Shown here: piece after piece, positions 34,731 to 63,792 of the stretch
How positions within the stretch are numbered: the first letter of the stretch is position 1
Layout: each line of letters begins with the position of its first letter
Assembly: GCA_947629045.1 (NCBI GenBank)
Contig: CANRCF010000005.1
Span: 1 to 64,000 of the forward strand
DNA: 64,000 bases
Origin: an uncultured Clostridia bacterium
GTDB taxonomy: Bacteria; Bacillota; Clostridia; TANB77; CAG-508
Direction of reading: 5' to 3'
The notes under the pieces: model-generated
What the model was told of the DNA's origin: nothing
Databases searched by the model: none
What the model saw: the letters and a program-made list of their open reading frames with translations, nothing else
Position numbers and translations under genes: made by a program

Positions 34731-36047
34731 CTATTTTAGGTAAAGCACAGGTCGAAAGCCGATCCCAACGTAACAAACACTAACATCGTGATCACCATAT
34801 CGTGAAGCAACACGGTAATCGTTACCCTCGTCGTAAAAACCACCCCCACGCAAAACAGCATAGATAGTTCCATCTGTTGGTTCCACCTTTGTTCCTTGTT
34901 CTGATTCTGCTGCTGTACTATGGCTTCCTTTTTCTGTTGTCCATTCCCACATATTTCCTGCAAAATCATATATGTTATTTGCTTTATTTTTTTCTGATAT
35001 TCCTGTTGCTAATTCGTATAATGTTTGTTCTCCTTCGCTAGACCTTGCCTTAAAATTTACTGGTCCTCTTTTATAATTTCCTTCATTTGTTGTCAAAACC
35101 CATCCATTGTATTTTATTTTATGTTCTGAATATAAACCATTTACATTTTCTCCTGAATCTGCATCAACATAGTTACCCCATGAGGTACCATTGGTTAATT
35201 TATTTTTATCAACTTTGCTTAGCCAGTGGCATATTGTATCCCATGCATATGAATCTATTAATCTACTAGTTACTGATGTGCTATCTTCGTACATCCTTTC
35301 CGATAATCCTTTTGCAACTGTTTGGCTTACATAGTTCCATGCTTGTAATCCTTTCTTTGATGCTGGTAAATTTTCTTTTGTTACTTCTATTGCTGATTTA
35401 TTTCTGTTTGCTTCATTTGATTTTTCTGTATATTTAGTAGTTTCATCATAGTTTATACTCTCTGGCACTCCTGCTTCATATCTTGCTACATAAAAGCCTC
35501 CGTTGTCTTTTACACTTTTTTTCCTGAAATCTATGTCTTCTTCGTCCCACCAATCTTTATAATCATTGTACTCATATTGTTTTTCTTTCCATGTTACTGT
35601 GTCTTGTTCGTATATTATTTTTTCACCATTTTCAGCATCTACATCATCTTCTACGCCATCTACTGGCACCCAGACAAACTCATTTCCTTTGCTATCAATA
35701 ATTACTAGACCTTCATCAACAACATTTTCTCCCTCAACCCCACTTACTGCAAATCCTGCTGGGACTGTTACTGTTTTTCCATTTTTATCTGTATATTTCG
35801 TATTTTCAAAATTCATAACAGCCTCTGCCATTGCGATTTGCCTTAAATCATTATCTTTTGCCTCATTCGTCTTTTCTCCTGCTTCTTTTGCTAACTGCAA
35901 TATTCCATTATCTCCAAATACTACTGTTATACTTACTGATGCCAAAATCAAAAGCACTACAATTGTTACTACTAAGGCTATTAGTGTTATTCCTGACATT
36001 GCATTTAATGTACTTTTCATGCTATTATTTTTTCTAATACTTTGCAT
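34731..36047 (-). CDS. Prepilin-type protein with FGE/C-type-lectin-like C-terminus; candidate DGR target
   Basis: SGITLIALVVTIVVLLILASVSITVVFGDNGILQLA; FVWVPVDG; NIYDFAGNMWEWT; RGGGFYDEGNDYRVASRYGDHDVSVCYVGIGFRPVLYLK. Confidence 0.85.
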   Translation of the reverse strand: MQSIRKNNSMKSTLNAMSGITLIALVVTIVVLLILASVSITVVFGDNGILQLAKEAGEKTNEAKDNDLRQIAMAEAVMNFENTKYTDKNGKTVTVPAGFAVSGVEGENVVDEGLVIIDSKGNEFVWVPVDGVEDDVDAENGEKIIYEQDTVTWKEKQYEYNDYKDWWDEEDIDFRKKSVKDNGGFYVARYEAGVPESINYDETTKYTEKSNEANRNKSAIEVTKENLPASKKGLQAWNYVSQTVAKGLSERMYEDSTSVTSRLIDSYAWDTICHWLSKVDKNKLTNGTSWGNYVDADSGENVNGLYSEHKIKYNGWVLTTNEGNYKRGPVNFKARSSEGEQTLYELATGISEKNKANNIYDFAGNMWEWTTEKGSHSTAAESEQGTKVEPTDGTIYAVLRGGGFYDEGNDYRVASRYGDHDVSVCYVGIGFRPVLYLK

Positions 36048-36160
36048 TTTTAGTATATTGCTTGCATTATCATTTACACTTCTGCCTTGTGTAAGCTTTG
36101 TAGTGCATATAAATAATGGTTTATTTAAGCTATATAAACCTTCCCTTTCTTCTATTTTTC

Positions 36161-36220
36161 CTAAATTACGGCTCTCTCTCTCTCTCTCTCTCTAGAGCCA
36201 CAAGCGTTTTTGTTTTTCAT
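36161..36220 (-). CDS. Leader ORF with (Arg-Glu)n, present short frame (19 aa)
   Basis: gaggaggagaacacATG RBS; MKNKNACGSRERERERAVI*; contains (AG)11. Confidence 0.6.
   Translation of the reverse strand: MKNKNACGSRERERERAVI
36172..36193. repeat. (CT)11/(AG)11 simple sequence repeat
   Basis: Direct reading of the tract. Confidence 0.97.
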
Positions 36221-46130: not shown

Positions 46131-49100
46131 TTATTGGGCTTGATAAGCTTCAAATGAAATAGTATATTCTTGAGGTATTCCTCCTTTAAGCACATAACCG
46201 TCCATTAAATTAATTTTTACTGTTAAAGTAACATTTTTCAAATCCTCATTTTTCATCAAATATGGGATTTCCATTCCTTTAACTGCAACGGCCGGCAATA
46301 TTTTATTAGTCATCGTACTCTTATAATTGTTTTCTGAAATATCTGCATAAGTTAGCGTAGCCTTACCACTCGCTGATCCTCCAGCTATTATATCTATTGA
46401 TTTTACGCCCGTATTAGACTGGTTACACCTAGTATGAGAAGTCTCCTTACAAGTACTATGATCTAATAAAGTTCTCAAAGCGTCAAATATACCTGTACCG
46501 CTAGTTAAAGCAAGCATCTCTCTAGAATTCTTATATTGTACAGTTACATTTTTTGGATTTTGTGCATCTACAGAAACTACATACTTCGTCTTACCGTTTA
46601 TACAACCCATTGCAGTAGTCCCTAGAGTAGAAATATCTAGCACTTCTTCAAATTCGACTTCAAATGTATCTGTATCGTCTTCTTCGTCCCATACTGCTGT
46701 TTCTTCATTCAATACAGTTTTTACTGTAATTTTTTTACCAAGTAAATTAGAAAAATCTAATTCATCCAAAGTAGTTGTTAAATCTGAAGTAGCTCTTGCT
46801 GGCATAACGGCTTGAGGCTCTGTTGTTAGTGCTGTAAATAATTCTGTAATTTTTTCATTATTACTACCTTCTTGATGTTCCTCATCAATAAAGAAATCAT
46901 ATGGCTTATCATTATATGTGACTGTCATTTTCTCTACTTCTTCATTCTGTAATCCTGTTTTGAATACTTGTGATAAAGCTGTATTTTCTAATAAGTCACT
47001 TACTTTTGCAGAACTAGTATCTTCAACACCTATTATAAATTTATTTTCGCCACTATTATCTTTTATTGTTGAAAAACCCGTTTCTTCAATTTGACCGTCT
47101 CCATCACTTAATGCTTCTTGTATTTTGTTAGTTGCATTAAATACTTTGTACCATTCGGCATTTAGTGTAAAATCTTCAGTTACTGGTTCTTTAAAAGTGT
47201 ATTCTTCACCAGCTTCTTTAGCCCATTGTTTAAATTTATATTCTCTTCCGTCTTTATTATCTACTTTAGTTGTTAGTTCCACATCTATAGCATCTTTGCT
47301 CATTGGAAGTCCTTCGTCCACTATAATATTTTCAGTTTGTTCTCCACTTCCGTTGTCATATTTTACTGTAACTTTTCTTGTATCTCTTTCAAATTTTATT
47401 TCATATGTTTCTGTGCGTGTTCCTTCAGTACCAAATTCAAATCCTTCACTTAATGTTACTTCTAGTTCAAATTTAGTTCCATTTATTAAGCAATTGTTTG
47501 TTGCTGATTCCCAAGAGCATGTTCCGTCTGTAGTATCTTCACAACATTCTCCGCCACCGCAAGTGCATATTTCTGCCCAGTTTTCTTGTAGCCAAGCTTC
47601 AAGAAGGTCTGCAGGGCTTGTAGCAACTTCACTTACTGCTTTTAAACTTACTTCAGATAATGGTTGTTTTAATGTGATAGATTTTCCTTGATTTTCTCCA
47701 TAGTATAATACAATTTTTTCTATTCTTTCATCTGAAAGTAACTTCATAGCTGTAACTATTATATTAGTATTTGTTCCTTTTAATTCTGATAACTTTTGAC
47801 TACTTGTAGTTGGTGTGACTGTTACTGTTTCATCAGTACAACTTATTTTATAGCCAGAAATTGTATTTTCTGATATAACTTCTTGTGCTAATTTGTCTGC
47901 TTCAATAACATCAAAGAATTTAACTGTGTATGCTTCTGTATCTTCTTTTTCCTCACTTTGTGTTGCATTTTCTGTATTTAATTTAACTGTTACTGTAAAT
48001 TCTCTTCCTGCTAATACATCTAATTTCACTTCTTTCCAATTGCCGTTATCATCTGTAGTATTAGTTATTGCTTTTAAGAATGCTTTTATTTTATCTTTGA
48101 TAGTTGTTTCAACATCATCGTTAGTAAGGTCTGATGTACTAAATTCAAATGGTTCATCGTCCTTTCCTACTTCTTTGATTGAAATAGAATCAACATAGTT
48201 TACATTAGCTGCTACATAAGCAATTAATTGTTCTTCCAACTCTCCAGCTATTGTTTTAATATTATCAAATGTTTTAGTATTATCTAAAATAGTTACTTCT
48301 AAATTATTACTTTCAGCATCAAATTTTACTTTTGCAATGCCTTTGGTTTGTTCATGTGTATTTACTGCTGTTGCAAAGAACTGTACTTCATTGTCTACAC
48401 TTACAACTTTTAACCAATGTGCTTCTAATGTAATGTTGTAATAAACTGTATCATTTTCAAAATTGAATTTTTTATCCGTACTATCTGCATTTTTCTTATC
48501 TTTTACATACCAACCTTCTAAAACGTAACCTTCTCTTGTTACATTTTCTGGTGGTGTTATTTTTCCTGGTGTTGTTAATGTTTTAGGTGTTTTTGTACTC
48601 TCCTCTGGATCCTCTTTATCATTATGGTCAAATGTAACTGTGATGTCATCTCCTGTAAATTTAACTGTGTATTCTCTTGTTGTTGTTCCGTCATCTTTTA
48701 GTTGTACTCCATCTGCTAATTCTACTGTTACTTTTACTATTTTGCCTACCAAGTCACTATTATATGGTGGATATTCTTCTGTTATCTCTCTTCCAAATAC
48801 TTCAGCAAAATGTTCTGATACCCAATTAATTATTTCATCACTATTTATATCACCTGCTAAATTGATTACTAAATCTTCGTCTATGTTTTCAAATGATAAT
48901 GTAATTGTCTTTATTTCGTTTGTTGCTTTTACTGCATCTAAAGCATCAAAAACGTCTGTATCAGTCATTTCAAAAATTTTTTGTGATCTATCATTTACTT
49001 TTACATTTACCTCTTCTTTATTTTTATCATATGTAGATGTAAAATAATCTGTGCCAATAGCTTTACTTAATTTGTCTACCCAATCGTCTAAATCTAGTAC

Positions 49101-50219
49101 TGTATTAAAGCTTACTGTATATTCTCCCGTTTCTCCTTCTGGTAATACTGCTATTGTATCATTTAAATATACTTTTGCTGTAAAGCTTTTGCCTGCTAAT
49201 GAACCTAAATTTTGAGTAATCCACTCGTCACTACCTGTTATAGCTTTTAATAATTCACTTGCTTGATTATATACTTCAGTTTGATCTGCATTTTTATCAA
49301 ATGTATATGTCGTACCATTATATGTTACTTCTAATTTGGCGAAGTCTTCATTTGATAATGCTTTTACTAATTCTTCTATTAATGTAGTATGACTTCCTAC
49401 AATATTTTGAAAAGTTGTTGTTTTTCCTGAATCTGTTATACCAAAATTAATAGTTCCTTCATTTTTATGAATGTCTAATATGCTTGTTACATTTGTATTT
49501 TGTTTTAATCTTTCTATTGTGTCTTCAATATATTCATCTACACTTACTACCTTTTTCCAAACTGCAAAGAAAACGGTATTTTCATTAATAACTTCTTTTG
49601 ATAAGTTTTCTGGGCTAATTTGTTGTGCATTAGTTTCACCAGCCGTTGCTTTTATCCAGCCCGCTAGTTTATAGCCTTCTTTTTCTTCTATTGTTACTGT
49701 TCCTACTGTTTTTCCTTTTTCTACTTCTTTACTACTTAATACTGTTTGACCATCTACAAAGAATACTTTGTATTTTTGTACTGGTTCTGCTGGTTTCTCT
49801 AGATTGGGTGCTGTTAAGCCTTGTTTTAGTACATTATCTATGTACCATATATCTGCTGAAGTTTTACTTACTTTTGTACTTGCTTTTCCATTTACATATT
49901 GGTACCATTCTCCAAATGTGTATACATACATTTTTGGATATGTATAACCATCAGTTGTTTTTTTATCTGCTACAAATATTGCTAAATCGTTTGCTCCTGC
50001 TATTGCCGCGTTTTCTCCTGTTACTATTACTCCTGGTGTGAATTTGCTTTTTCCTATTACTATTGTTCCATCTTCTAGTTGATATTGGTCTTTATTTGTA
50101 CTTGAAGATGGCTTTTCTGTTATGTTTGGTGTCGTTGCTGCTTTTACTGGAATTGTTATTGCTACAATAGCTAATATGATTAAGCTTATCGTTAGTAATT
50201 GTTTTATTCCTTTTTTCAT
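46131..50219 (-). CDS. Giant secreted repeat protein B1 (1362 aa)
   Basis: Signal peptide MKKGIKQLLTISLIILAIVAITIPVKA; InlB/Flg_new-like segments; conserved N-terminal module; Cys cluster. Confidence 0.85.
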   Translation of the reverse strand: MKKGIKQLLTISLIILAIVAITIPVKAATTPNITEKPSSSTNKDQYQLEDGTIVIGKSKFTPGVIVTGENAAIAGANDLAIFVADKKTTDGYTYPKMYVYTFGEWYQYVNGKASTKVSKTSADIWYIDNVLKQGLTAPNLEKPAEPVQKYKVFFVDGQTVLSSKEVEKGKTVGTVTIEEKEGYKLAGWIKATAGETNAQQISPENLSKEVINENTVFFAVWKKVVSVDEYIEDTIERLKQNTNVTSILDIHKNEGTINFGITDSGKTTTFQNIVGSHTTLIEELVKALSNEDFAKLEVTYNGTTYTFDKNADQTEVYNQASELLKAITGSDEWITQNLGSLAGKSFTAKVYLNDTIAVLPEGETGEYTVSFNTVLDLDDWVDKLSKAIGTDYFTSTYDKNKEEVNVKVNDRSQKIFEMTDTDVFDALDAVKATNEIKTITLSFENIDEDLVINLAGDINSDEIINWVSEHFAEVFGREITEEYPPYNSDLVGKIVKVTVELADGVQLKDDGTTTREYTVKFTGDDITVTFDHNDKEDPEESTKTPKTLTTPGKITPPENVTREGYVLEGWYVKDKKNADSTDKKFNFENDTVYYNITLEAHWLKVVSVDNEVQFFATAVNTHEQTKGIAKVKFDAESNNLEVTILDNTKTFDNIKTIAGELEEQLIAYVAANVNYVDSISIKEVGKDDEPFEFSTSDLTNDDVETTIKDKIKAFLKAITNTTDDNGNWKEVKLDVLAGREFTVTVKLNTENATQSEEKEDTEAYTVKFFDVIEADKLAQEVISENTISGYKISCTDETVTVTPTTSSQKLSELKGTNTNIIVTAMKLLSDERIEKIVLYYGENQGKSITLKQPLSEVSLKAVSEVATSPADLLEAWLQENWAEICTCGGGECCEDTTDGTCSWESATNNCLINGTKFELEVTLSEGFEFGTEGTRTETYEIKFERDTRKVTVKYDNGSGEQTENIIVDEGLPMSKDAIDVELTTKVDNKDGREYKFKQWAKEAGEEYTFKEPVTEDFTLNAEWYKVFNATNKIQEALSDGDGQIEETGFSTIKDNSGENKFIIGVEDTSSAKVSDLLENTALSQVFKTGLQNEEVEKMTVTYNDKPYDFFIDEEHQEGSNNEKITELFTALTTEPQAVMPARATSDLTTTLDELDFSNLLGKKITVKTVLNEETAVWDEEDDTDTFEVEFEEVLDISTLGTTAMGCINGKTKYVVSVDAQNPKNVTVQYKNSREMLALTSGTGIFDALRTLLDHSTCKETSHTRCNQSNTGVKSIDIIAGGSASGKATLTYADISENNYKSTMTNKILPAVAVKGMEIPYLMKNEDLKNVTLTVKINLMDGYVLKGGIPQEYTISFEAYQAQ

Positions 50220-50240
50220 ATTTTTTATTCTCCTTCCTTT

Positions 50241-51572
50241 CTAGTTTCCTTTTACATTAGAAACTGATTTTATTGTGTCTTTTACATATATTGCTCCACT
50301 TGCTGGTATACTTACTGTCTTACTTGTTCCTCCTATACTTGTTAGGGTTGCTGTTCCTGCTACATGTTGTCCTTTTGAGTTTACAATGTATAGTCTATAT
50401 TGTCCTGCTACACTCTCTTCTATTTTTACCCATTCATATGTATAGGTCTCTGGTTTCTCTTTTATTGTTATTGTTACACTTGCTGTTTTACTTCCATCTT
50501 CTGTTGTTACTGTTATTGTTACTGTTCCTGCTTTTAATGCTTTTACATTTCCATTTGCGTCTACTGTTGCTACTGATGGATTGCTACTTTTCCATGTTAC
50601 TTTCTTGTTGCTAGCATTACTTGGACTTACTGTTGCTGTTAGCTTTAAGCTATCTCCTACTGTTAAGTCCTTTGCTCCACTTATTTTTACACTTGTTACT
50701 GATACTGTTGTAACTGCTTTTGCTTTTACTGTTACTTTATATGTTGCTGTCTTTCCATTTGCTGTTTTTGCTGTTATTGTTACTGTTCCTGCTTTTAGTC
50801 CTTTTACATTTCCGTTTGCATCTACTGTTGCTATTGATTTATTGCTACTGCTCCATGTTACTTTTTTGTTGCTAGCATTACTTGGACTTACTGTTGCTCT
50901 TAATTTTATTGTACTTCCTACTGTTACTGTGTTTGCTCCACTTATCTTTACACTTGTTACTGCTACTTCTTTTGATGTTTCTTCTGTTACTGTAACTTTA
51001 CATGTTGCTGTGAAGCCTCCATCTTCTGTTGTTACTGTTATTGTTGCTGTTCCTGCTTTTAGTCCTTTTATGTTTCCATATTCGTCTACTGTTACTACAC
51101 TTTCGTCACTTGTTTCCCATATTAATTTTGGGTTTGTTGCATTTGATGGTGTTATTGTTGCTATTAATGTTTCTGTTCCGTTTACTTCTAAACTTACACT
51201 TTCAACATTTAACTCTACACCTGTTACTGGATTTGCTATTGATCCTTCTACTGCCCATCCTGCTTCTAATGTCATGTCTTGTTTTACTGGTGTTTCAAAA
51301 TCATATAGCTCTTTATTGTAGTACCAACCTCCAAATACATAGCCTTCTCTTGTTGGGTCTTCTGGTTTTTCTACTTTATCATTTTCCTTTACTTTTACTG
51401 ATGCAACTTCACTTCCTCCGTTGCTATCAAATGTTACTGTGTATTCTTTTCTTATTAAGAATAGTAGTAATAGTATGATAAGTAGAAGTACTACTACTGC
51501 AACCACAATTGCTATACGTTTATTTTTTTCTTGGTTTTGTTCTTTTTTATTTTCTTCAAGTCTTTTTGCCAT
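50241..51572 (-). CDS. Membrane-anchored Ig-like (Big_2) protein A1 with InlB-like repeat
   Basis: N-terminal TM; YTVTFDSNGG..PEDPTREGYVFGGWY; three VTSVxIxG..ATVDANGNVKGLKAGTxTIT repeats. Confidence 0.9.
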   Translation of the reverse strand: MAKRLEENKKEQNQEKNKRIAIVVAVVVLLLIILLLLFLIRKEYTVTFDSNGGSEVASVKVKENDKVEKPEDPTREGYVFGGWYYNKELYDFETPVKQDMTLEAGWAVEGSIANPVTGVELNVESVSLEVNGTETLIATITPSNATNPKLIWETSDESVVTVDEYGNIKGLKAGTATITVTTEDGGFTATCKVTVTEETSKEVAVTSVKISGANTVTVGSTIKLRATVSPSNASNKKVTWSSSNKSIATVDANGNVKGLKAGTVTITAKTANGKTATYKVTVKAKAVTTVSVTSVKISGAKDLTVGDSLKLTATVSPSNASNKKVTWKSSNPSVATVDANGNVKALKAGTVTITVTTEDGSKTASVTITIKEKPETYTYEWVKIEESVAGQYRLYIVNSKGQHVAGTATLTSIGGTSKTVSIPASGAIYVKDTIKSVSNVKGN

Positions 51573-51720
51573 TGACTTTTTCTCCTTTCTTATTAGTTTA
51601 ATTTAAGTTTAAAATGTAATACATATTTAACTTAAATTTTAAATACCATACCTAGAGTTGCTGTTAAAACAGATCACCTCCTCAAATTTTTAAATTATAT
51701 AAAATCAACTATAAGATACG

Positions 51721-51768
51721 AAAAGGAATATATAACCTAAAACTCTATATTAGGCTATATATTCCTTT
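51721..51768 (-). terminator. Leader hairpin (attenuator candidate) upstream of A1
   Basis: Minus strand AAAGGAATATATAGCCTAA-loop-TTAGGTTATATATTCCTTTT. Confidence 0.65.
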
Positions 51769-51872
51769 ATATTATTTATATTTATTTTGGTATGAGAAAT
51801 AATACTTCTTTTAGAAGTAAGGCTCTCTCTCTCTCTCTCTCTTACAGCTTCAAGGTTTTTATGTTTCATCAT
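51750..51872 (-). CDS. Leader ORF with (Arg-Glu)n, long frame (40 aa)
   Basis: AAGGAGATGTTAAATATG RBS/start; MMKHKNLEAVRERERESLTSKRSIISHTKININNIKEYIA*. Confidence 0.6.
   Translation of the reverse strand: MMKHKNLEAVRERERESLTSKRSIISHTKININNIKEYIA
51823..51842. repeat. (CT)10/(AG)10 simple sequence repeat
   Basis: Direct reading of the tract. Confidence 0.97.
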
Positions 51873-51980
51873 ATTTAACATCTCCTTAGGTTCTTTGCTG
51901 TTTAGTTGATTTTCTTTTTCTTTCTTATTGTAACATCTTTACTTCTCAAAAGTCAATATTTTTTTAATTTTTTATAACAC

Positions 51981-52025
51981 GACAAATAACCTACAAATCT
52001 TATATTTTTTTGTAGGTTGTTTGTC
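51981..52025 (-). terminator. Hairpin downstream of B2
   Basis: acaaataacctacaaa...tttgtaggttgtttgt. Confidence 0.65.
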
Positions 52026-52069
52026 TGTAAGCTTATATCATTTAAAAAATACTTAAAATATTTTTTTAT

Positions 52070-55000
52070 TTAGACTTGTGGTGCAGTGCCTGTAAATGTT
52101 ACATGGTAAATTAATGGTGTTCCGTCTGAAAATTCATATCCATCTACTAATCCTACTTTTACTTGTAACTCTCTTTCAACAAGGTCACCAGCCTTTTCAA
52201 CGTCAGCAAAAAAATCTTGTAACCCCACTAATGCTAATGCAATAAGTGCTTCTCCATTAGTTTTGAAATACATATTATAAGGGAAATCAGCTGGATCTTC
52301 ATTTTCAGCCATTTCTTTAGTAACTACAGCATTCTTATCAGGTGTTCCTTTTGGAATATTTATAGTTAAATTATCAATGTATGGAAATTTTAGAAAATTC
52401 ATTAATACAGTTTTTCCACCACACCCCACAGCTACCCCACTAGACGACAGACTAAATACCGAAGCATTATATGATTTAGAAACATCTATTGTAATATTTT
52501 CATTATTTAAAGTTATATCAATTTTATTGTTTTTATCAATCAATGTTTCTAATGTATCATTTCCATATTTTTTCTCTTTAACATCTTTAAATATTGCCAA
52601 CTTGTCTATCAATTCTTTAAATTCAACTTTATATGATATTACTGTATATTCTGGTTCATCTACTTTCATTAGCATAACAGGTTTTGCAGTTTTGTCTTCT
52701 ACTTTTATCTTGTCATTATTTAAATAAATATCTACTGTTAATGTTTTACCTCTTAATTCAGCTAATGTCTTATCTTCTGTTCCACCTAGAATTTTAGTCA
52801 TTAAGTTTTGTTTTTCTGTTTCATTTGTTCCTATGTTTTCAAATGTATATGTTTCTTCTCCATCAGTAGTTACTATTATTTTATCTACACCATCTTTTTC
52901 TAATTCTGATTTTAATGCTTTTGCTAATCCAGTACTTTCTAAAACTTCTGATGCAGTTTTCGTATTATCTGATACCTTTATAGTAACTATATCTTTACCT
53001 GTTTCTTCATCTTGTTTAAATTCTTCTTTCATTCCTATTGTCTCTGATTCATTTTGTTGCATTGCATCTTTAATTGAAGAACTTACATCTTCATCTGCAT
53101 TTACTATTAAATACCAATCTGCATATAAGTCTGTCATATCTACTGTTACTTTTTGAGAAGCTTCATATTTTTCAGTTAATTGTTCATCTGTACACCAACA
53201 TTTTAATGAATGCTCATCATAATCTGTTGCATTTAATTTACTTGCTTCAATAGGAAGACCTTCTAGAACTTTAATATCTGTTTCAGTTTCATTATCATCA
53301 TTATGATGCAACTTTATTGTTTGTTCATTTCTCGCAAATTCAATTGTATAACTTGCTTCACGTGTTCCTTTTTCATCAAATTTAGCTATATTACTTAATG
53401 TAACTTCTAATGTAAATTTAGTACCTGCTATTAAGCAATTGTTTGTTGCTGATGTCCAAGTACATTTTTCGCAGTTACCACAACATTCGCCTCCTCCACA
53501 AGTACAAATGTCGCTCCAATTATCTTCTAGCCAAGCTTCAAGCATATCTTTAGCACTTCCAGATTCTCTGCTTTCTGCTACTAAGTTTATCTCTGATAAT
53601 GGTTTTAATGTAATAGATTTATCTTGATTTGCGCCATATTTTACTACTATTTTTTCTATTCTCTCATCATCAATTAAATCCATTGCTGTATCTATTATAT
53701 TTGTATCGCTTATTTCAGATAATTTTTTTGAACTTTCTATTGCAGTAAAAATTATTTTTCCATCATCTTTTGCATTTATTTTGTAAGCACCATTTAACAC
53801 ATCACTTTTTATAACTTCATTTACTAAATCAGTTTTGCTTACTGTTGTTGTAAAAGAAAGTGTATATTTTTCTTCTAAATTTTTATTTTCTTGTAATGCA
53901 GTTTCTTCATTTAAAGTTACAGTTATATTAAAAGTTTTACCAACTAACTCTTGAATTGTTTTTTCCTTCCATTCACCATCGTTTTGAGTATTTGTAATTT
54001 CTTTTAAAAATCCTTTTATTTCTGTTTTTATTGCTTCTACTTCTTGAGTAGGATCAAATGTAAAAGTTTTTTCGTTAGGTACACTTACTGTAATTTTACT
54101 AATATAATTCATGTTTTCTGTTACATATTTAGTTAATTGTGTTTCTAATTTTTTTGCTATTTCTAATATGTCACTAAATTTTTTTGTTGTATCTAAAATA
54201 GAGATTTCTCCGCTGTTGTTTGTAGCATCAAATGAAGCTTTTGCGATTTTATTTGTCTCACTGTGTGTATTTACTGCATTAACAAAGAAATTTAATTCAT
54301 TGTCTACACTTACTAATTTTTTAAATGTTACTGTGTAGCTTTCTTCAGTTTTATGGTCTTCATCTTCTTGTATTGCATTATTAACATTTAATTTTACATC
54401 TACTGTAAATGTTTTTCCTGCTAAAACATCTATTTTAGCATTTTTCCATCCATCGTTACTTGTTCCTGCAATAGCATTTAAGAAAGATTTTATTTTTTCT
54501 TTTACTGTTCCAACTCCAGCTTCAAGTTCACTAACTTTAAATTCAAATGATTGCCCTTGTGCACTTTCCGCCGTTTTTGGTAATGTAATTTTAATAGTGT
54601 CTATATAATCTTTATTAGTTGCTACATAAGTAGCCAATTGTGTTTGTAAATCTCCTGCTATGCTTTTTATATCATCAAATGTTTTGTTGTTATTTAATAT
54701 ATCTACTTCTATTTTATCTTCCGTATCATCAAATGTAACTTTTGCTATATCTTTTGTTTCATTATGACTGTTTATTGCATTCTCAAAAAATTCAATTTCA
54801 TTATCAATGCTTACATTTTTTGCCCATTTTGCTGTTAACGTGATATTGTCATATACTATGTTATTTTCAAAATCAAATTTTGTTTCTGTTTCAGGTTGAC
54901 CACCACTGGTAACAAACCATCCTAATAAAGTATAACCATCTCTTGTTATATTTTCTGGTGCTGTCACTTTTCCTGGTGTTTTTAATGTTTGAGTTGTTTT

Positions 55001-56623
55001 TGTACTATCTCCTGTATCTTTATCCTTATGGTCAAAAGTAACTGTAATATCTTCTCCTGTAAATTTAAATGTGTATTCTCTTGTTTTTATTCCATCTTCT
55101 TTTAGTTGTGCATCATCTACTAATTCTACTGTTACTGTAAATGTTTTTCCTACTAAATCACTGTTATATGCTGGATTTTCATCTGTTATTTCTCTGCCAA
55201 ACAATGCTGTTTGATTAGTTTTTAGCCATTCTAAAATTTCTATTGTATTTAATTCTTGTGTTAAATCTACTGCCAAGCTGTTTTGTATTCCATCACCAGA
55301 CAATGTAATTGTTTTTATTAAATTCGTTTCTTTCACTTCTTTTAAAGCATCAAAAATGTCAGTATCAGTCATTTTAAAGATTTCTTGTGATCTATCTTTT
55401 ACTTTTACTTCTATTGTTTCTGTTTCTTTTGTATAAGTAATGTCAAAATAATTCTTTCCTACTACTTTGCTTGCTTGATTTACCCAATCATCTAAATCTA
55501 CTAATGCATTGAAGGCTACTGTATATTCTCCTGTTTCACCTTCTGGAAGTACTGCTTTTGTATCATCTAAATATACTTTTGCACTAAAGCTTTTTCCTAC
55601 TAGGTTTCCTAGTGTTTCTGTACCCCAGCTATTACCTAAAACTTCTTCTAGTAGTGTATTTGCTTTTGCAGCTATATCTAATAAACTATCCCCTTGATTA
55701 AATGTAATAACTCCATTTTCTCCATATTTAACATCTAATTGTTTTATATTTTCATTTTGTAATGCTGATAATAATTCATTTACTAAATTTGTATTTGAAC
55801 CAATAATTTCTTCGATTTGTTTAGTTGACTCTTTTATACCAAAATTAACAGTTCCTTCATTTTCAACGATTTCTAATATTTCTGTTAAACTTGTATTTTT
55901 ATTTAATCTTTTAATTGCTTCTTTAATATATTTATCTACACTTACTACTTTTTTCCAAACTGCAAAGAATACTGTGTCTGATTCAATTTTCACATTTGAT
56001 ACTTCATCTAGTGTAAGTACATTAGTTTCTGTACTGCCTAATGTTGCTTTTATCCATCCTACTAATTTGTAGCCATCCCTAGTTGCTTCTGGTGCTTCAC
56101 CTACTGTTTTTCCAGTTTCTACTTCTTTGTTAGCTAATATTTTGTGTTCTTCTCCACTTACAAAAAGTACACTATATTTTGTAACTGGCTCTGCTGGTTT
56201 TTCTAAAGTTGGTGCTGTTAGTCCTTCTTTTAATACGTTATTAATGTACCATATATCTGCTGAAGTTTTGCTTACTTTTGTACTTGCTTTTCCATTTACG
56301 TATTCATACCATTCTCCAAATGTGTATACATACATTTTTGGATATGTATAACCATCAGTTGTTTTTTTATCTGCTACAAATATTGCTAAATCGTTTGCTC
56401 CTGCTATTGCCGCGTTTTCTCCTGTTACTATTACTCCTGGTGTGAATTTGCTTTTTCCTATTACTATTGTTCCATCTTCTAGTTGATATTGGTCTTTATT
56501 TGTACTTGAAGATGGCTTTTCTGTTATGTTTGGTGTCGTTGCTGCTTTTACTGGAATTGTTATTGCTACAATAGCTAATATGATTAAGCTTATCGTTAGT
56601 AATTGTTTTATTCCTTTTTTCAT
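52070..56623 (-). CDS. Giant secreted repeat protein B2 (1517 aa)
   Basis: Same signal peptide and N-terminal module as B1; divergent repeat body; Cys cluster. Confidence 0.85.
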   Translation of the reverse strand: MKKGIKQLLTISLIILAIVAITIPVKAATTPNITEKPSSSTNKDQYQLEDGTIVIGKSKFTPGVIVTGENAAIAGANDLAIFVADKKTTDGYTYPKMYVYTFGEWYEYVNGKASTKVSKTSADIWYINNVLKEGLTAPTLEKPAEPVTKYSVLFVSGEEHKILANKEVETGKTVGEAPEATRDGYKLVGWIKATLGSTETNVLTLDEVSNVKIESDTVFFAVWKKVVSVDKYIKEAIKRLNKNTSLTEILEIVENEGTVNFGIKESTKQIEEIIGSNTNLVNELLSALQNENIKQLDVKYGENGVITFNQGDSLLDIAAKANTLLEEVLGNSWGTETLGNLVGKSFSAKVYLDDTKAVLPEGETGEYTVAFNALVDLDDWVNQASKVVGKNYFDITYTKETETIEVKVKDRSQEIFKMTDTDIFDALKEVKETNLIKTITLSGDGIQNSLAVDLTQELNTIEILEWLKTNQTALFGREITDENPAYNSDLVGKTFTVTVELVDDAQLKEDGIKTREYTFKFTGEDITVTFDHKDKDTGDSTKTTQTLKTPGKVTAPENITRDGYTLLGWFVTSGGQPETETKFDFENNIVYDNITLTAKWAKNVSIDNEIEFFENAINSHNETKDIAKVTFDDTEDKIEVDILNNNKTFDDIKSIAGDLQTQLATYVATNKDYIDTIKITLPKTAESAQGQSFEFKVSELEAGVGTVKEKIKSFLNAIAGTSNDGWKNAKIDVLAGKTFTVDVKLNVNNAIQEDEDHKTEESYTVTFKKLVSVDNELNFFVNAVNTHSETNKIAKASFDATNNSGEISILDTTKKFSDILEIAKKLETQLTKYVTENMNYISKITVSVPNEKTFTFDPTQEVEAIKTEIKGFLKEITNTQNDGEWKEKTIQELVGKTFNITVTLNEETALQENKNLEEKYTLSFTTTVSKTDLVNEVIKSDVLNGAYKINAKDDGKIIFTAIESSKKLSEISDTNIIDTAMDLIDDERIEKIVVKYGANQDKSITLKPLSEINLVAESRESGSAKDMLEAWLEDNWSDICTCGGGECCGNCEKCTWTSATNNCLIAGTKFTLEVTLSNIAKFDEKGTREASYTIEFARNEQTIKLHHNDDNETETDIKVLEGLPIEASKLNATDYDEHSLKCWCTDEQLTEKYEASQKVTVDMTDLYADWYLIVNADEDVSSSIKDAMQQNESETIGMKEEFKQDEETGKDIVTIKVSDNTKTASEVLESTGLAKALKSELEKDGVDKIIVTTDGEETYTFENIGTNETEKQNLMTKILGGTEDKTLAELRGKTLTVDIYLNNDKIKVEDKTAKPVMLMKVDEPEYTVISYKVEFKELIDKLAIFKDVKEKKYGNDTLETLIDKNNKIDITLNNENITIDVSKSYNASVFSLSSSGVAVGCGGKTVLMNFLKFPYIDNLTINIPKGTPDKNAVVTKEMAENEDPADFPYNMYFKTNGEALIALALVGLQDFFADVEKAGDLVERELQVKVGLVDGYEFSDGTPLIYHVTFTGTAPQV

Positions 56624-56644
56624 ATTTTTTATTCTCCTTCCTTT

Positions 56645-57976
56645 CTAGTTTCCTTTTACATTAGAAACTGATTTTATTGTGTCTTTTACATATATTGCTC
56701 CACTTGCTGGTATACTTACTGTCTTACTTGTTCCTCCTATACTTGTTAGGGTTGCTGTTCCTGCTACATGTTGTCCTTTTGAGTTTACAATGTATAGTCT
56801 ATATTGTCCTGCTACACTCTCTTCTATTTTTACCCATTCATATGTATAGGTCTCTGGTTTCTCTTTTATTGTTATTGTTACACTTGCTGTTTTACTTCCA
56901 TCTTCTGTTGTTACTGTTATTGTTACTGTTCCTGCTTTTAATGCTTTTACATTTCCATTTGCGTCTACTGTTGCTACTGATGGATTGCTACTTTTCCATG
57001 TTACTTTCTTGTTGCTAGCATTACTTGGACTTACTGTTGCTGTTAGCTTTAAGCTATCTCCTACTGTTAAGTCCTTTGCTCCACTTATTTTTACACTTGT
57101 TACTGATACTGTTGTAACTGCTTTTGCTTTTACTGTTACTTTATATGTTGCTGTCTTTCCATTTGCTGTTTTTGCTGTTATTGTTACTGTTCCTGCTTTT
57201 AGTCCTTTTACATTTCCGTTTGCATCTACTGTTGCTATTGATTTATTGCTACTGCTCCATGTTACTTTTTTGTTGCTAGCATTACTTGGACTTACTGTTG
57301 CTCTTAATTTTATTGTACTTCCTACTGTTACTGTGTTTGCTCCACTTATCTTTACACTTGTTACTGCTACTTCTTTTGATGTTTCTTCTGTTACTGTAAC
57401 TTTACATGTTGCTGTGAAGCCTCCATCTTCTGTTGTTACTGTTATTGTTGCTGTTCCTGCTTTTAGTCCTTTTATGTTTCCATATTCGTCTACTGTTACT
57501 ACACTTTCGTCACTTGTTTCCCATATTAATTTTGGGTTTGTTGCATTTGATGGTGTTATTGTTGCTATTAATGTTTCTGTTCCGTTTACTTCTAAACTTA
57601 CACTTTCAACATTTAACTCTACACCTGTTACTGGATTTGCTATTGATCCTTCTACTGCCCATCCTGCTTCTAATGTCATGTCTTGTTTTACTGGTGTTTC
57701 AAAATCATATAGCTCTTTATTGTAGTACCAACCTCCAAATACATAGCCTTCTCTTGTTGGGTCTTCTGGTTTTTCTACTTTATCATTTTCCTTTACTTTT
57801 ACTGATGCAACTTCACTTCCTCCGTTGCTATCAAATGTTACTGTATATTCTTTTCTTATTAAGAATAGTAATAACAATATGATAAGTAGAAGTACTACTA
57901 CCGCAACCACAATTGCTATACGTTTATTTTTTTCTTGATTTTGTTCTTTTTTATTTTCTTCAAGTCTTTTTGCCAT
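56645..57976 (-). CDS. Membrane-anchored Ig-like protein A2
   Basis: Translation identical to A1. Confidence 0.9.
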   Translation of the reverse strand: MAKRLEENKKEQNQEKNKRIAIVVAVVVLLLIILLLLFLIRKEYTVTFDSNGGSEVASVKVKENDKVEKPEDPTREGYVFGGWYYNKELYDFETPVKQDMTLEAGWAVEGSIANPVTGVELNVESVSLEVNGTETLIATITPSNATNPKLIWETSDESVVTVDEYGNIKGLKAGTATITVTTEDGGFTATCKVTVTEETSKEVAVTSVKISGANTVTVGSTIKLRATVSPSNASNKKVTWSSSNKSIATVDANGNVKGLKAGTVTITAKTANGKTATYKVTVKAKAVTTVSVTSVKISGAKDLTVGDSLKLTATVSPSNASNKKVTWKSSNPSVATVDANGNVKALKAGTVTITVTTEDGSKTASVTITIKEKPETYTYEWVKIEESVAGQYRLYIVNSKGQHVAGTATLTSIGGTSKTVSIPASGAIYVKDTIKSVSNVKGN

Positions 57977-58089
57977 TTCGACTCTTTCTCCTTTCTTTAT
58001 TTATATTAATACTAAATGTCATTTCCTAGGTGCCTAAAAAACACAATCACCCCCTAAATATTGACTACTTTAATTCCTATAAAATATCA

Positions 58090-58130
58090 AAAAGGATGGG
58101 GTAATCTATAACAGATTATCCTCATCCTTT
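58090..58130 (-). terminator. Leader hairpin (attenuator candidate) upstream of A2
   Basis: Minus strand AAAGGATGAGGATAATCT-GTTAT-AGATTACCCCATCCTTTTT. Confidence 0.7.
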
Positions 58131-58170
58131 AATTTTATTTTATATTTATTTTGGGTATAAGAAATAAAGC

Positions 58171-58242
<72 letters not shown>

Positions 58243-58492
58243 TATGTTCAACTCCTTTTTTCTTTTATTTCTTTACTTATCATATTTTATCATTTTTATA
58301 TATCAAAGTCAATTCATTTTTGCTACTTTTCTGCAAGTTTTTTACTACTTTTCTGCAATGTTTTTCTAGTAATTTTTACTCAATAAATTAATGCTAAAAT
58401 TTTATTATAATATTAATGGTGTGATTTTGTTGATACTCTTTTCTTTTTTTAATTAAACGCTAAATCTAGCTACGAATATCTTTTCTTATAAA

Positions 58493-58537
58493 GAAAAACT
58501 AAGGTGTGATGTACCTTCAATCACACCCTAGTTTTTG
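58493..58537. terminator. Hairpin downstream of B3
   Basis: aaaaactaaggtgtga...tcacaccctagttttt. Confidence 0.85.
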
Positions 58538-58662
58538 TTTTTGCTTGCTAAGCATAGTTACATAGATGATTTTAACAGATGTTTTTATTTTGTTAGAATA
58601 AGTTCTCTTATTCCAATGGTTTCTTATTTCAATGTTTTCTTATGTCAATGGTTTTCTATTTA

Positions 58663-61600
58663 CTAGCTCACTACCATTGAAGTAACAACTTTTACTTGAG
58701 AACCTCCTTGTAATGTATCACTTTCACTTCCGCTTCCACTTTCATCAATATATTTTATTTTGATTTGGTTAAAGTCACCTACAGGATGGATTTGAATGTT
58801 GCCAAATTGATTTGAGTCTGTTGCATATTGAACGGCAATATTTACGTCTGCTGTAGAGTTTATAGAAATATCTGCTTCTTTTCCAGATACAGTTTTTAAT
58901 AATTTAACTGCATATTTTGCACCTGTAAAATCATTTGAAGCTACACTAATGGTTGCGTTACCATCATCACCTTTTTTAGCAGAAGTATCAAAGTCTTTTA
59001 TAGTAACCGCACTTTCAATATTAGCAGAATTTGTTTTTCCAAATGTATTATAAGAAATATTAGTACCACCTGCAAGTGCACTATCAACGTCAATGAAAGT
59101 ATTTTTAATTTTTGTTCCATCAAAGGTATTCCATCTAATATCAACTGTTGCTTTAGTACCTGAATATTTAATTGCACTCTCTACATCTGCATTACTTGCA
59201 TTTGTCAAACTTGATTGCCATAATCTAAATTTCTCTGCCTGTACATCAATTAAGGTATTTTTGTTTTCAGCATCGGTAGCTGTAATATCTACCCAGTGGA
59301 TAAACACATCTTGAGCTTCCTTTGCAATGGTAATATTTTTTAATTTTAGTTTTGCATGGCCTGCTGAAGGTCCAATAATTGAAAGTTTTCTATTAATTGT
59401 AACATTTTCGTCAGTTAAATCAATTTCTGAATTAGTTTTGATATATATTGTTGAAATAGCTGGATCTTTAATAGCTTGCTTTAATGCTTCTTTTGGTCCA
59501 CTTTCTGACCCATCTGTTATCACTACTGTACCTACTGTATCTGTTACCTTGTATGCTGCATAGTATGTCTTGTCTGAAACAGCTACTAAGTCTGCCATGA
59601 CATCACCACCAGTGATCTTAGCGTTTCCATTTTCATCCACTGTAATTGAACCTGTTGGAAGTTGTGGTTCTGAATCAGAGTAAGTTGTTTTATTGCTACT
59701 TTCTGTGAATCCAATGCAAGTATATGTCTTTCCATCATCATCAAATGATTTAAACACATTAAATGGAGCTTCCGAAGATGGAGCCTTAACCGTTTTACCA
59801 TAATAATTATATCTAACAAATGATGCTTTTTTACTTCCTACTTGGTTAAGGAAAGTAGTGGTGTATATTTTTGCATTTACTGCTTTGTTATAATAATTAA
59901 CGTAATTGTATTCGTCAACTTTCGTTTTGGTATCTCCTGGTACAGTCTTGTCTTGGTGAGTTTCATACGTCTCAAATTTTTCCATTTCTTCTACTTTTTC
60001 AGCTGTTTTTGATCCACTATCTTTAAAAGTAACGGTTGCGCTTTTACCAGCTTTAACAGCAGGTTTTGTATAATGTTCACCATCATAGGTTAAACCAGAA
60101 ACGTCTAATGATGCACTACCTGCAACAGTTATAGCAGATTCAGTCTTAGTTCCTTCTACTTTTATTCCAGCTACTTTTAAACTTCCGCTGGTAACAGTAA
60201 TTGGATTTTTAACATCACTTAATGTAACATTTTGAATTGTTACACCTGCGCTTTGAACATCCAATAGTGTGTCAACGCCTGTTTTCTCAGCTTGCAAGGT
60301 TATGCTATAATTGCCATCTTCACCAGCTTTTTGTCCATCGATGGTTACTTCTCTAGTAATTTCATGTTTCTTTGTTACTTCAATATCATTTCCCAACTTA
60401 ATTGTAGTAATTTTTTCATTTCCTAATGCACTTTCTAATTCTGTTTCGTTTTTAACTGTAACTACTTTGCTTTCAAAGTTAAATGTATAAGTTTTATTAT
60501 CAGGTTCTGCTAGTTCTACAGAGTCAATATTGTCGCCAAGTTCTATGCTAAAGCTTTGCTTACCAAGTGCCATTTTACCTAATGTCATTGTAGGTTCTGC
60601 CTCTCCTAAAACTTGAGCAAATAAAGCTTGTGCTCCTGTTTGTATTTTTTCTTTTAGTTGTTGTCCGTCTTCGTCTAAAGCCATTGTTGATAATACTTGA
60701 TTATTTGTTCCCTCTTTTGTGAATTCTACTTTGTTCGAGCCTGTGCTTAAAGTAATTTTTTCAATTTCACCTTTTTGAAGAATGTAAGCAATAGCTCCTG
60801 GAATATTGGTATTATTCATTTCGCTTAATAGTAAGTTAGCATTTTTTGCCTCTATTGTAATATTGTTGTCTTCACCCATAGTTAAGACAAATCTTTGATA
60901 ATTCTCAGCGTGTGAATTTGAATCTTTAATTACTGCCTGAATAAAGGCATCTGCATCTAAGATCCAATGTGCTTTTAGCTCAAGATCCTCATCATGTTTT
61001 GTTGTAAGTCCTTCCTCAACAACCTCGTTTCCGTCATCCTTGGTCCATTCCTTAAATTTACGATAGTCAGTTGAAATTTCACTTAAATCCTTCAAGGTAA
61101 CTGGTTCATTTTCATAAACATTTGTTACTTCAGTTACATCTTCACCATTAGCATTTTTATAAGAATAAGTGATATGGTTTTCTGATAAGAAAGTAAAGTC
61201 AACTGGAATGGTTTCTTCTTTTGGCAAATATTCTTTACCTTGTTCTCCATCATAGTCAATTTTGTAAGAAAGAGTTTCGCTTCCTTCATTTACTTTAAAT
61301 AGAACAACAATATAACCATTTGTATAATCTGTTTCTGAAGGTTTTACTTCGGTGTAGACTTCACTTTCATGTTTTAAGCTAACTGTCCAAGCATTCTCTG
61401 GTAAATTTTTATTTTTTGGAACAATAATTTTTACAGGTACATAATATCCTTCAGCATTACTAAATCCTGCAGTTTCATTTAAAGTTTGTTGTTTTAGTTT
61501 ACCTTGAAAAGTAGCAGGTGTTCCCTGTTGTAGCAATAGTTTATAATGAATATCATTTAATTCAAATTTGAATCCCCAATCATTCGTCAACATTTCTTTG

Positions 61601-63792
61601 TCTGCTTTACTGATGTTTCCTGAATTAGCCATATCATAAGAACTACCGGTTGATTCTCCTTCAAATCCTAATTTGCTCCAATCTATGGTAACGGTGAATG
61701 GTACATATTTGGTATCATCTCCGTCCATATCTACTACAATATCAAATGTTCTTGTTTTAACGTCTTCAGCTAATCTTTGAACTGTATCTGGGTTTAATGA
61801 CATTAATATTAAAATTTGGTTATCATTGCCATCCTTTTTATCCCAAACTTCTTTTCCAGTTACTACTTTAGTACCATTTTCAGCTGTTAAAACTGGAACT
61901 GTTATTTTTGTTTTTTCTGTTGGTGCTGTTTCAGATTTAATTACTATTGGTAAATAGTAATTGGTTTTTTCCTCACCATCAAATCCAGTAACATCTTTCA
62001 TTTTTGGCAATAAACCTGTTACACTGATGGTTACTCTTGTTGGATCTTGCTCTGCTTCAGCATTTGAGGTAAATTTAAGATTCAAGTTTTCTGTTTTTTG
62101 CCAATGATATGTGTTTGTCAATGCGTTTGTAATTTCTGTATTTGCAATATCGTCTGGATCAGTTACTGCAATTACATTAGATGGTTCACTAAAGATTACT
62201 TCGCTATAGTCTATAGTGTAAGTTACTGGTGCATACTCATCACCATCACCATCTATATCTACTACAACTACAAATTGTTTTGGATCGGCTCCGGTATTTA
62301 ACTTCATTAATAAAGTAATACCTAGCCCATCATCTCCAACTGTTTTAACAGATGTTCCACCTTCTGCATCTTTTGGTACTGTTACTGTCGTTTTCTTTGC
62401 TATAAATTTATCATTATTTATATTGTATAATAAAAAGTATCCGTCACTTCCCAATCCTGCATCTGCTTCAACATCTTGTTTTACAATAGTTCCTGTTAAA
62501 TTTATTTTAAGTGGGTCGCTTTCATCAACTTTCAATTCATAACTATCTTGTGATGTTCTTGCATAACCCCAATTGCTAGAAATATAATTTACATCTGCTT
62601 CTGGTAATTCATCTGCATTCGAAGTAAATGTTGCTTCAGATACTTCTTGGAATGTTACTCCGCTCCAGTCAATTGTGTATGTGCCTTCAGCATATTTATC
62701 ACTTGCACCATCCAAGTCTACTACTACTGTTATTGTTTTATCGTCAGCATTTTCATTTAATGATACTAATATAGCCATTTTTCCATTATCTTTATCATCA
62801 AATGCAGTATATGGTATAGATTTTTCTTCTCCATTTGATTTTAATATTACTGTCGTTGCTTCAGTTACTGTTCCTTCTACATCTAATACATATCCGAAAT
62901 AGTAACCTGTCTTTTTATCTCCACTAAATGTACTGTCTGGCACGTCTTTTTTTGCTTTTTCAATTAAACCTGTTAATTGACCACCTTCTGCTAAGGTAAG
63001 TTTTTTTGCATTTTCTTTGTCATAATTTCCATCAAATCCTAAGCCTTTTAATGCAGTTAAGAAAGTATTACTATCTTTTACACTTTGTCCTACTTCATCT
63101 AAACTTACTTTAAATTTAGTAATTTCACTCCATTTTGCAAAGAATACTGTGTCTGATGTGATTACTTCACTTTCTATTTTATCTAATGCAACTTCTGTTG
63201 TAGTGTCACTTCCTACTGTTACTTTTATCCATCCTGCTAATTTGTAGCCATTTCTAGTTGCTTCTGGTGCTGTACCTACTGTTTTTCCTTCTTCTACTTC
63301 TTTACTATTTAACACTTCTTGACCATCTACAAAAAATACATTGTATTTTGTAACTGGTTCCACTGGTTTTTCTAGTTCTGGTGCTTGTTGACCTTGTTTT
63401 AATACGTTATCTACATACCATATTTCCATTGGTAATGTTGGACTTACCTTTTTTGTTGCTCTTCCATTTACATATTCGTACCATTCTCCAAATGTATATG
63501 TATACATTTTTGGATATGGATAACCATCAGTTGTTTTTTTCTCTGCTACAAATATTGCTAAATCGTTTGCTCCTGCTATTGCTGCTTTTTCTCCTGTTAC
63601 TATTACTCCTGGTGTGAATTTGCTTTTTCCTATTACTATTGTTCCATCTGCTAGTTTGTATGTGTCTTTGTTACTACTTGATTCTACATTTTCAGGTAGA
63701 TTGTTTGTAACAGCTTTTACTGGAATTGTTATTGCTACAATAGCTAATATGATTAAGCTTATCGTTAGTAATTGTTTTATTCCTTTTTTCAT
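58663..63792 (-). CDS. Giant secreted repeat protein B3 (1709 aa)
   Basis: Same signal peptide/N-terminal module; tandem YTIDWSxVxF repeats; beta-helix-like C-terminal region. Confidence 0.85.
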   Translation of the reverse strand: MKKGIKQLLTISLIILAIVAITIPVKAVTNNLPENVESSSNKDTYKLADGTIVIGKSKFTPGVIVTGEKAAIAGANDLAIFVAEKKTTDGYPYPKMYTYTFGEWYEYVNGRATKKVSPTLPMEIWYVDNVLKQGQQAPELEKPVEPVTKYNVFFVDGQEVLNSKEVEEGKTVGTAPEATRNGYKLAGWIKVTVGSDTTTEVALDKIESEVITSDTVFFAKWSEITKFKVSLDEVGQSVKDSNTFLTALKGLGFDGNYDKENAKKLTLAEGGQLTGLIEKAKKDVPDSTFSGDKKTGYYFGYVLDVEGTVTEATTVILKSNGEEKSIPYTAFDDKDNGKMAILVSLNENADDKTITVVVDLDGASDKYAEGTYTIDWSGVTFQEVSEATFTSNADELPEADVNYISSNWGYARTSQDSYELKVDESDPLKINLTGTIVKQDVEADAGLGSDGYFLLYNINNDKFIAKKTTVTVPKDAEGGTSVKTVGDDGLGITLLMKLNTGADPKQFVVVVDIDGDGDEYAPVTYTIDYSEVIFSEPSNVIAVTDPDDIANTEITNALTNTYHWQKTENLNLKFTSNAEAEQDPTRVTISVTGLLPKMKDVTGFDGEEKTNYYLPIVIKSETAPTEKTKITVPVLTAENGTKVVTGKEVWDKKDGNDNQILILMSLNPDTVQRLAEDVKTRTFDIVVDMDGDDTKYVPFTVTIDWSKLGFEGESTGSSYDMANSGNISKADKEMLTNDWGFKFELNDIHYKLLLQQGTPATFQGKLKQQTLNETAGFSNAEGYYVPVKIIVPKNKNLPENAWTVSLKHESEVYTEVKPSETDYTNGYIVVLFKVNEGSETLSYKIDYDGEQGKEYLPKEETIPVDFTFLSENHITYSYKNANGEDVTEVTNVYENEPVTLKDLSEISTDYRKFKEWTKDDGNEVVEEGLTTKHDEDLELKAHWILDADAFIQAVIKDSNSHAENYQRFVLTMGEDNNITIEAKNANLLLSEMNNTNIPGAIAYILQKGEIEKITLSTGSNKVEFTKEGTNNQVLSTMALDEDGQQLKEKIQTGAQALFAQVLGEAEPTMTLGKMALGKQSFSIELGDNIDSVELAEPDNKTYTFNFESKVVTVKNETELESALGNEKITTIKLGNDIEVTKKHEITREVTIDGQKAGEDGNYSITLQAEKTGVDTLLDVQSAGVTIQNVTLSDVKNPITVTSGSLKVAGIKVEGTKTESAITVAGSASLDVSGLTYDGEHYTKPAVKAGKSATVTFKDSGSKTAEKVEEMEKFETYETHQDKTVPGDTKTKVDEYNYVNYYNKAVNAKIYTTTFLNQVGSKKASFVRYNYYGKTVKAPSSEAPFNVFKSFDDDGKTYTCIGFTESSNKTTYSDSEPQLPTGSITVDENGNAKITGGDVMADLVAVSDKTYYAAYKVTDTVGTVVITDGSESGPKEALKQAIKDPAISTIYIKTNSEIDLTDENVTINRKLSIIGPSAGHAKLKLKNITIAKEAQDVFIHWVDITATDAENKNTLIDVQAEKFRLWQSSLTNASNADVESAIKYSGTKATVDIRWNTFDGTKIKNTFIDVDSALAGGTNISYNTFGKTNSANIESAVTIKDFDTSAKKGDDGNATISVASNDFTGAKYAVKLLKTVSGKEADISINSTADVNIAVQYATDSNQFGNIQIHPVGDFNQIKIKYIDESGSGSESDTLQGGSQVKVVTSMVVS

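Follow-up and report, generated by a model that had tools for sequence, protein, structure and literature searches.

A putative phase-variable leader-peptide attenuator with an AG-repeat tract ahead of surface-protein genes in an uncultured gut Clostridia bacterium

The closest described system to the one considered here is that of the pil1 and pil3 pilus operons of Streptococcus gallolyticus (S. gallolyticus), in which the number of GCAGA repeats in a leader open reading frame (ORF) moves the stop codon of that frame relative to a terminator, thereby switching the operons (Danne et al., 2014; PMC3894217). Mutations of the leader ATG and of the terminator have the effects that this model predicts; a stop in or near the terminator corresponds to the ON state, and a stop at least 28 nt before it to low expression (PMC3894217). 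A later study, which also discusses the pyrBI operon, reported that the ribosome represses a terminator when the stop codon is close, and that termination is maximal, or restored, once a distance of more than ~27 nt separates the terminator from the stop upstream of it (Li et al., 2015; PMC4824070). Here, we describe a related arrangement in a 64,000 nt stretch of DNA (the window) from an uncultured Clostridia bacterium of the GTDB lineage TANB77; CAG-508 (GenBank assembly GCA_947629045.1, contig CANRCF010000005.1, positions 1 to 64,000). A short leader ORF with an (AG)10 tract precedes two genes, A1 and B1, which together we call cassette 1. Based on its anatomy and on that of its relatives, we think it very probable that this leader acts as a phase-variable transcription attenuator, dependent on translation of the leader peptide, that controls the A1-B1 operon of surface-protein genes.

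All of the window features described below are on the minus strand. The original prediction placed a ribosome binding site (RBS) and ATG, an (AG)10 tract, and a 40-amino-acid (aa) frame here, with the TAA of that frame atop the 5′ arm of a hairpin of roughly 19 bp, and this matches the sequence almost base for base. The RBS, a Shine-Dalgarno sequence AAGGAGA read at 51881-51887, is followed by a start ATG at 51872 and a second ATG at 51869. With n AG units, where n = 10 as assembled, the leader is read in what we call the long frame (51750-51872, TAA at 51752-51750), whose translation, MMKHKNLEAVRERERESLTSKRSIISHTKININNIKEYIA, is identical to that quoted earlier. The tract itself, which is the presumed switch, was located by a repeat scan at 51823-51842, and immediately 5′ of it is a conserved motif, AAAACCTTGAAGCTGTA (51843-51859), that also precedes AG and AC tracts across the order. 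Folding gives one dominant hairpin in the leader region, a terminator-like stem of 19 bp (51722-51768) with a 9 nt loop (51749-51741), and the long-frame TAA is the final triplet of its 5′ arm. The 81 nt hairpin region has a folding energy of -24.9 kcal/mol (z = -5.5), and none of 200 shuffled sequences was equally stable. A simple terminator scan returned no site at this hairpin, which is uninformative, because the scan allows loops of 3-8 nt and the loop here is 9 nt. Upstream of the leader is a promoter-like site, TTGACT-18-TGnTACAAT (51927-51956; 10 of 12 matches), in a region in which the number of such sites is not above chance; all six of the cassette leaders compared have TTGACTTT at a comparable position, with an A/T-rich, -10-like stretch after it. 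Between the hairpins and the A genes of cassettes 1 and 2, at 51685-51660 and 58060-58030, there is also a near-perfect anti-16S sequence (GAGGAGGTGATC / GGGGGTGAT), which occurs in some form in all six cassette leaders, and has no obvious long ORF behind it.

The geometry of these elements points to a three-state switch. We propose that transcription from the upstream promoter would produce an RNA that starts with a short translated leader. With 3k+1 AG units, as in the assembled tract, the ribosome would reach the stop atop the 5′ arm, cover that arm and block the terminator, so that the polymerase would continue into A1 and B1 (ON). With n = 3k, exemplified by n = 12, the frame stops at +12 past the tract, 42 nt short of the stem; the ribosome would halt there, and the hairpin would be expected to terminate transcription (OFF). 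With n = 3k+2, exemplified by n = 11, the stop lies at +41 past the tract and 13 nt short of the stem, where intermediate read-through would be expected. Slippage of the tract would flip cassette 1 between these states. Applying the pil1 distances and those of Li et al. to cassette 1 predicts ON at n = 10, intermediate at n = 11, and OFF at n = 12. We infer that the hairpin terminates, that translation blocks it, and that the tract slips in living cells.

Cassette 1 compares with pil1/pil3 in several respects. In each, a short tandem repeat lies within a short leader ORF with its own RBS and start codon, upstream of the (presumed) regulated surface-protein genes; a stem-loop lies between leader and structural gene (terminator-like at cassette 1 as judged by folding and by covariation in relatives, with termination predicted); and the repeat number, by setting the frame, shifts the leader stop from far upstream to within that stem-loop. 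The repeats differ, however, in that they are AG or AC dinucleotides rather than GCAGA pentamers, a property we treat as a trait of the first example and not of the mechanism. The leader sequence is also unrelated, there is a shared upstream motif, dozens of copies are present in some genomes, the stop is often at the hairpin apex, and the module is also found fused in frame to coding sequences. The AG-leader device is thus a new, much larger variant of the pil1-type mechanism, and not a new kind of mechanism.

Other known systems share parts of this design. In Escherichia coli (E. coli), attenuation at pyrBI and rph-pyrE is relieved by ribosomes that translate as far as an intrinsic terminator, or through it, and keep it from forming, and the AG leaders resemble both in that translation of a leader or upstream ORF would counter terminator formation. 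Whereas pyrBI responds to nucleotide levels via RNA polymerase pausing, the setting here would be the repeat number in the DNA; the rph-1 frameshift, which lowers pyrE expression, parallels the OFF state as a fixed, one-off case. As in the simple-sequence contingency genes of Haemophilus, Neisseria, and Campylobacter, repeat slippage near a start codon would toggle the frame at many loci per genome. In those genes, however, the repeat lies inside the regulated gene, whereas cassettes 1-3 carry it in a leader of its own, from which it would act on a terminator. We found no report of this AG-leader system in the open part of the literature, and a 2025 review of phase variation neither uses the term leader peptide nor names S. 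gallolyticus (PMC11868660).

The frame, stop and hairpin geometry, like the anatomy itself, is directly observed, and it is conserved across many loci. The comparison covers 92 tract-leader-terminator loci, found in this genome, in its genus and in the species genomes of GTDB, with one assembly per species throughout; they form 20 sequence clusters. In 85 of the 92, exactly one frame reaches the hairpin loop and the other two stop ahead of the stem. By cluster, the figure is 18 of 20 compared to 3.1 expected from dinucleotide shuffles (P about 7e-19). In 12 of 18 clusters, compared to 6.4 expected (P = 0.007), the long-frame stop falls in the loop or no more than 6 nt into the 3′ arm. Clusters may be distantly related to one another, and both P values therefore overstate their independence. 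AG tract lengths differ between paralogues and species. As assembled, 17 of the 92 loci are in the long frame, which is below one third (binomial P = 0.001, from paralogues that are not independent). Among the related cassette leaders (those of cassettes 1, 2, and 3, a fourth leader at L043, and two from G019, a species of the same genus), all six have a stable hairpin with the end of the long frame at its apex; the two orthologous cassettes of G019, with n = 13 and n = 16, are both in the long frame. AC-tract leaders from relatives (L314, L315, and L320) likewise end at hairpin apices. Translations and frame geometry across loci support the earlier proposal that the long frame is the special one, just as the geometry as a whole supports the reading of cassette 1 as a leader attenuator.

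One of the 92 loci, L256 (2885-3661), is not a clear attenuator: it consists of the motif and (AG)21 at the 3′ end of a glycosyltransferase-like ORF in a metagenome-assembled genome (MAG) of Candidatus Gastranaerophilales, where the neighboring genes lack a tract but have related sequence (TLAAVESNPAKSV) at their ends. That MAG is labelled as another phylum, and transfer or mis-binning is possible. In L216, another Candidatus Gastranaerophilales hit, the sequence ends right after the tract.

A further comparison came from G007, a related species with ~28 paralogous leaders, each before a terminator and followed, in nearly all that have downstream sequence, by a prepilin-like gene. All 21 leaders of equal length keep the long frame open through the terminator, and each of the other two frames carries 1-7 stops, whereas simulations from the consensus gave ~6 of 21 open and a maximum of 14 in 2000. 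Differences in leader length are of 3 nt. The hairpins covary, with 24 compensatory-change cells compared to a shuffled mean of 12.3 (0 of 500 shuffles as high), and 95% of cells are paired.

The original prediction proposed codon-level, synonymous-biased conservation in the long frame as its test, and such conservation is absent from the cassette family. Between the cassette 2-type leader and that of G019 there are 14 replacement codons and 1 silent codon, and the changes fall 7/6/6 by codon position. What is conserved is the openness of the frame and the position of its stop, and it is these, rather than the peptide, that are under selection. An open frame with a fixed end matches what control by ribosome position would need, and the lack of synonymous bias speaks against a function of the peptide itself while leaving control by ribosome position standing.

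Several observations nevertheless weigh against attenuation at cassette 1. The long-frame aa sequence is unconserved in the cassette family, and in the G007 leaders conservation is weak, with an overall dN/dS ratio of 0.74 and one of 0.30 in the final 36 nt, which lie after the terminator and are the only part where the ratio is informative. The U-rich tail of the cassette 1 hairpin (51709-51721; read as TTTTCGTATCTTAT) is weak and, as the original prediction noted, weaker than that of cassette 2. In Bacillus subtilis, transcription outruns translation, which would weaken coupling in Gram-positive relatives. Finally, the cassette 1 stem starts ~104 nt from the leader ATG, and terminators lying less than 100 bp into a coding region were found to be largely immune to ribosomes (Li et al., 2015; PMC4824070).

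We also weighed other explanations. One is translational polarity through Rho instead of through the hairpin: in a short frame, ~240 nt of RNA ahead of A1 would go untranslated and offer Rho a place to terminate, and the long frame shortens that stretch. The genome does encode Rho, and there is more naked RNA under the short frames. Yet the long frame of cassette 1 ends ~177 nt before A1, leaving most of the spacer naked in either state, and its stop is placed relative to a conserved, covarying, U-tailed hairpin for which Rho has no need; we therefore consider polarity very unlikely. Alternatively, the leader might be the decayed N-terminus of a phase-variable, prepilin-like ORF, with a tract that no longer controls A1. 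The leader does resemble the N-termini of such ORFs, and in this genome the same module is fused in frame to ten of them, one of which is in frame as assembled. However, under decay one would expect neither a single frame held open at 85 of 92 loci, its stop at the apex of the hairpin, nor the compensating hairpins of the G007 family, and we give this explanation very little credence. The least probable of the three is that the tract acts on translation of A1, or on the stability of its mRNA, by termination-reinitiation or ribosome protection of the RNA, and not on transcription termination. At L035, a locus of the same genome, the long-frame stop of the leader overlaps the ATG of the following gene, as coupling would need; A1 and A2 (the A gene of cassette 2), by contrast, each have their own RBS and start ~177 nt and ~129 nt, respectively, past the long-frame stop, which is too far for simple reinitiation. 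A trp-type, amino-acid-sensing attenuator was rejected, given that the sole codon run is the AG tract (Arg-Glu), a single hairpin dominates, and the downstream genes encode surface proteins and not biosynthetic enzymes; a known Rfam leader or riboswitch was rejected as well, since no family matches over the cassette 1 leader, even at E up to 1.

The attenuator we favor belongs to a wider population of tracts that share the upstream motif. In 27 contexts, picked from the matches to GGAG-ATG-(AG)9 as the sole criterion, with the two cassette leaders added by hand, the pre-tract sequence is conserved as nucleotides: TTG-N6-TA stands at a fixed distance in 26 of the 27, with AAA ahead in nearly all, and the motif TTG is read in two frames (16 and 10 contexts). 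The motif also precedes (AC) tracts in 36 of 41 picked contexts from 9 genera. An order-wide scan for the motif, AANCCTTGNNRCTGTA, directly 5′ of (AG/AC)n matched 47 of 158 genomes, in 20 of 35 sampled genera and four families, and a reversed control pattern had no matches; as the scan required the motif, it shows spread and not frequency among tracts. A direct pattern scan of the species genomes for the pre-tract sequence of cassette 1 gave no match. Since the motif precedes AC as well as AG, it is independent of the repeat unit, and since it is read in two frames, coding does not explain it. Its spread could reflect either shared descent of a mobile module or a functional DNA element. We tentatively raise the possibility, which we regard as less than even, that AANCCTTGNNRCTGTA might be a dedicated DNA element, serving for instance in recognition or priming, by which programmed dinucleotide tracts are seeded, positioned or maintained; the bacteria would then possess a portable switch module, and their repeats would not be so many separate accidents. 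Examples with (AC)n include L309:285 (contig C32:23685), L311-L313 of the same genome, and L314, L315, L320, and L321 in relatives, where the tract stands ahead of leader/terminator units or, at L309, of a glycosyltransferase-like ORF. In addition, several leaders, namely L311, L312, L313, and L138 (G007), look stacked, with a newer motif-plus-tract unit upstream of a short stub, TGGACAGYCTGGAGAGAG, and of what is left of an older AG leader, as though fresh modules had been placed in front of decayed ones.

The genome under study contains 22 AG tracts of at least 8 units, including that of cassette 1, and the readable ones sit ~10 codons after an RBS and ATG. MutS is encoded, so a loss of mismatch repair does not account for them. 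Ten tracts belong to prepilin-like ORFs (GITLIALVVTIVVLLILA...) as in-frame fusions; as assembled, L045 (n = 13) alone keeps the frame and the other nine are out of it. L036 and L044 are leaders that run through a terminator ahead of a prepilin-like gene. The prepilin-like family is large, with variable C-termini and some FGE-sulfatase folds (window 36220-34731 and 9938-8673; L031, L033, L037-L040, L042, L045, and L048). Its loci in this genome are of the classical contingency type: the prepilin-like/FGE-sulfatase surface gene at 34731-36220 has its coding sequence joined in frame to the AG module, and the assembled n = 11 is out of frame, while n = 13 would give 497 aa. The same classification was rejected for the cassettes, as no frame of cassette 1, 2, or 3 extends into gene A.

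The window contains cassette 1, one whole second cassette, and part of a third. A1 (50241-51572) encodes 443 aa and, by domain search, a membrane anchor, one Flg_new/List_Bact repeat and three Big_2 domains; B1 (46131-50219) encodes a secreted repeat protein of 1362 aa, whose N-terminal part is common to B2 and B3 and the rest divergent. The cassette 2 leader (58106-58242) has an (AG)14 tract at 58189-58216 (repeat scan) and, by folding, a terminator hairpin at 58091-58130 with a strong U tract and the long-frame TAG at its apex. Translations for each AG number bear out the earlier view that cassette 2 is assembled in the switched, short frame and cassette 1 in the long one: at n = 14 cassette 2 stops early, after 23 aa, and n = 13 or 16 would be required for the long frame, whose end, ..SKISFISYTQNKYKIKLKDEDNLL*, falls at the apex of the cassette 2 hairpin. 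A2 (56645-57976) encodes a protein 100% identical to A1, and B2 (52070-56623; 1517 aa) is 61% identical to B1 across the first 775 aa. Of cassette 3, B3 lies at 58663-63792, and A3 (99% identical to A1/A2) and an AG leader (n = 11) lie just outside the window (contig C5:65369-65390). The hairpins of cassettes 2 and 3 differ from that of cassette 1; the plan is the same. The fourth leader, L043, is of the cassette 1 type (n = 11) and lies near the end of contig C14; among these four, only cassette 1 is assembled in the long frame. Across the three tandem cassettes (46131-63792 and L034), the A genes are identical or nearly so, and the B genes are alike only N-terminally, which suggests gene conversion and antigenic variation among them. 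The divergence of the B proteins past their shared N-terminus resembles that of variable surface antigens, and we presume that the proteins are exposed adhesins or antigens.

To our knowledge, the pil1-type mechanism has a single experimental case, the two streptococcal pilus loci. It is apparently used in bulk in this uncultured order of Clostridia from the gut, some of whose genomes would have dozens of surface genes gated by a terminator. If true, expression state would be predictable from tract length in metagenomes, and the system allows a direct test of how read-through depends upon the distance between ribosome and terminator. The shared AG/AC motif also raises the question of whether bacterial microsatellite switches are made by a dedicated element or by chance.
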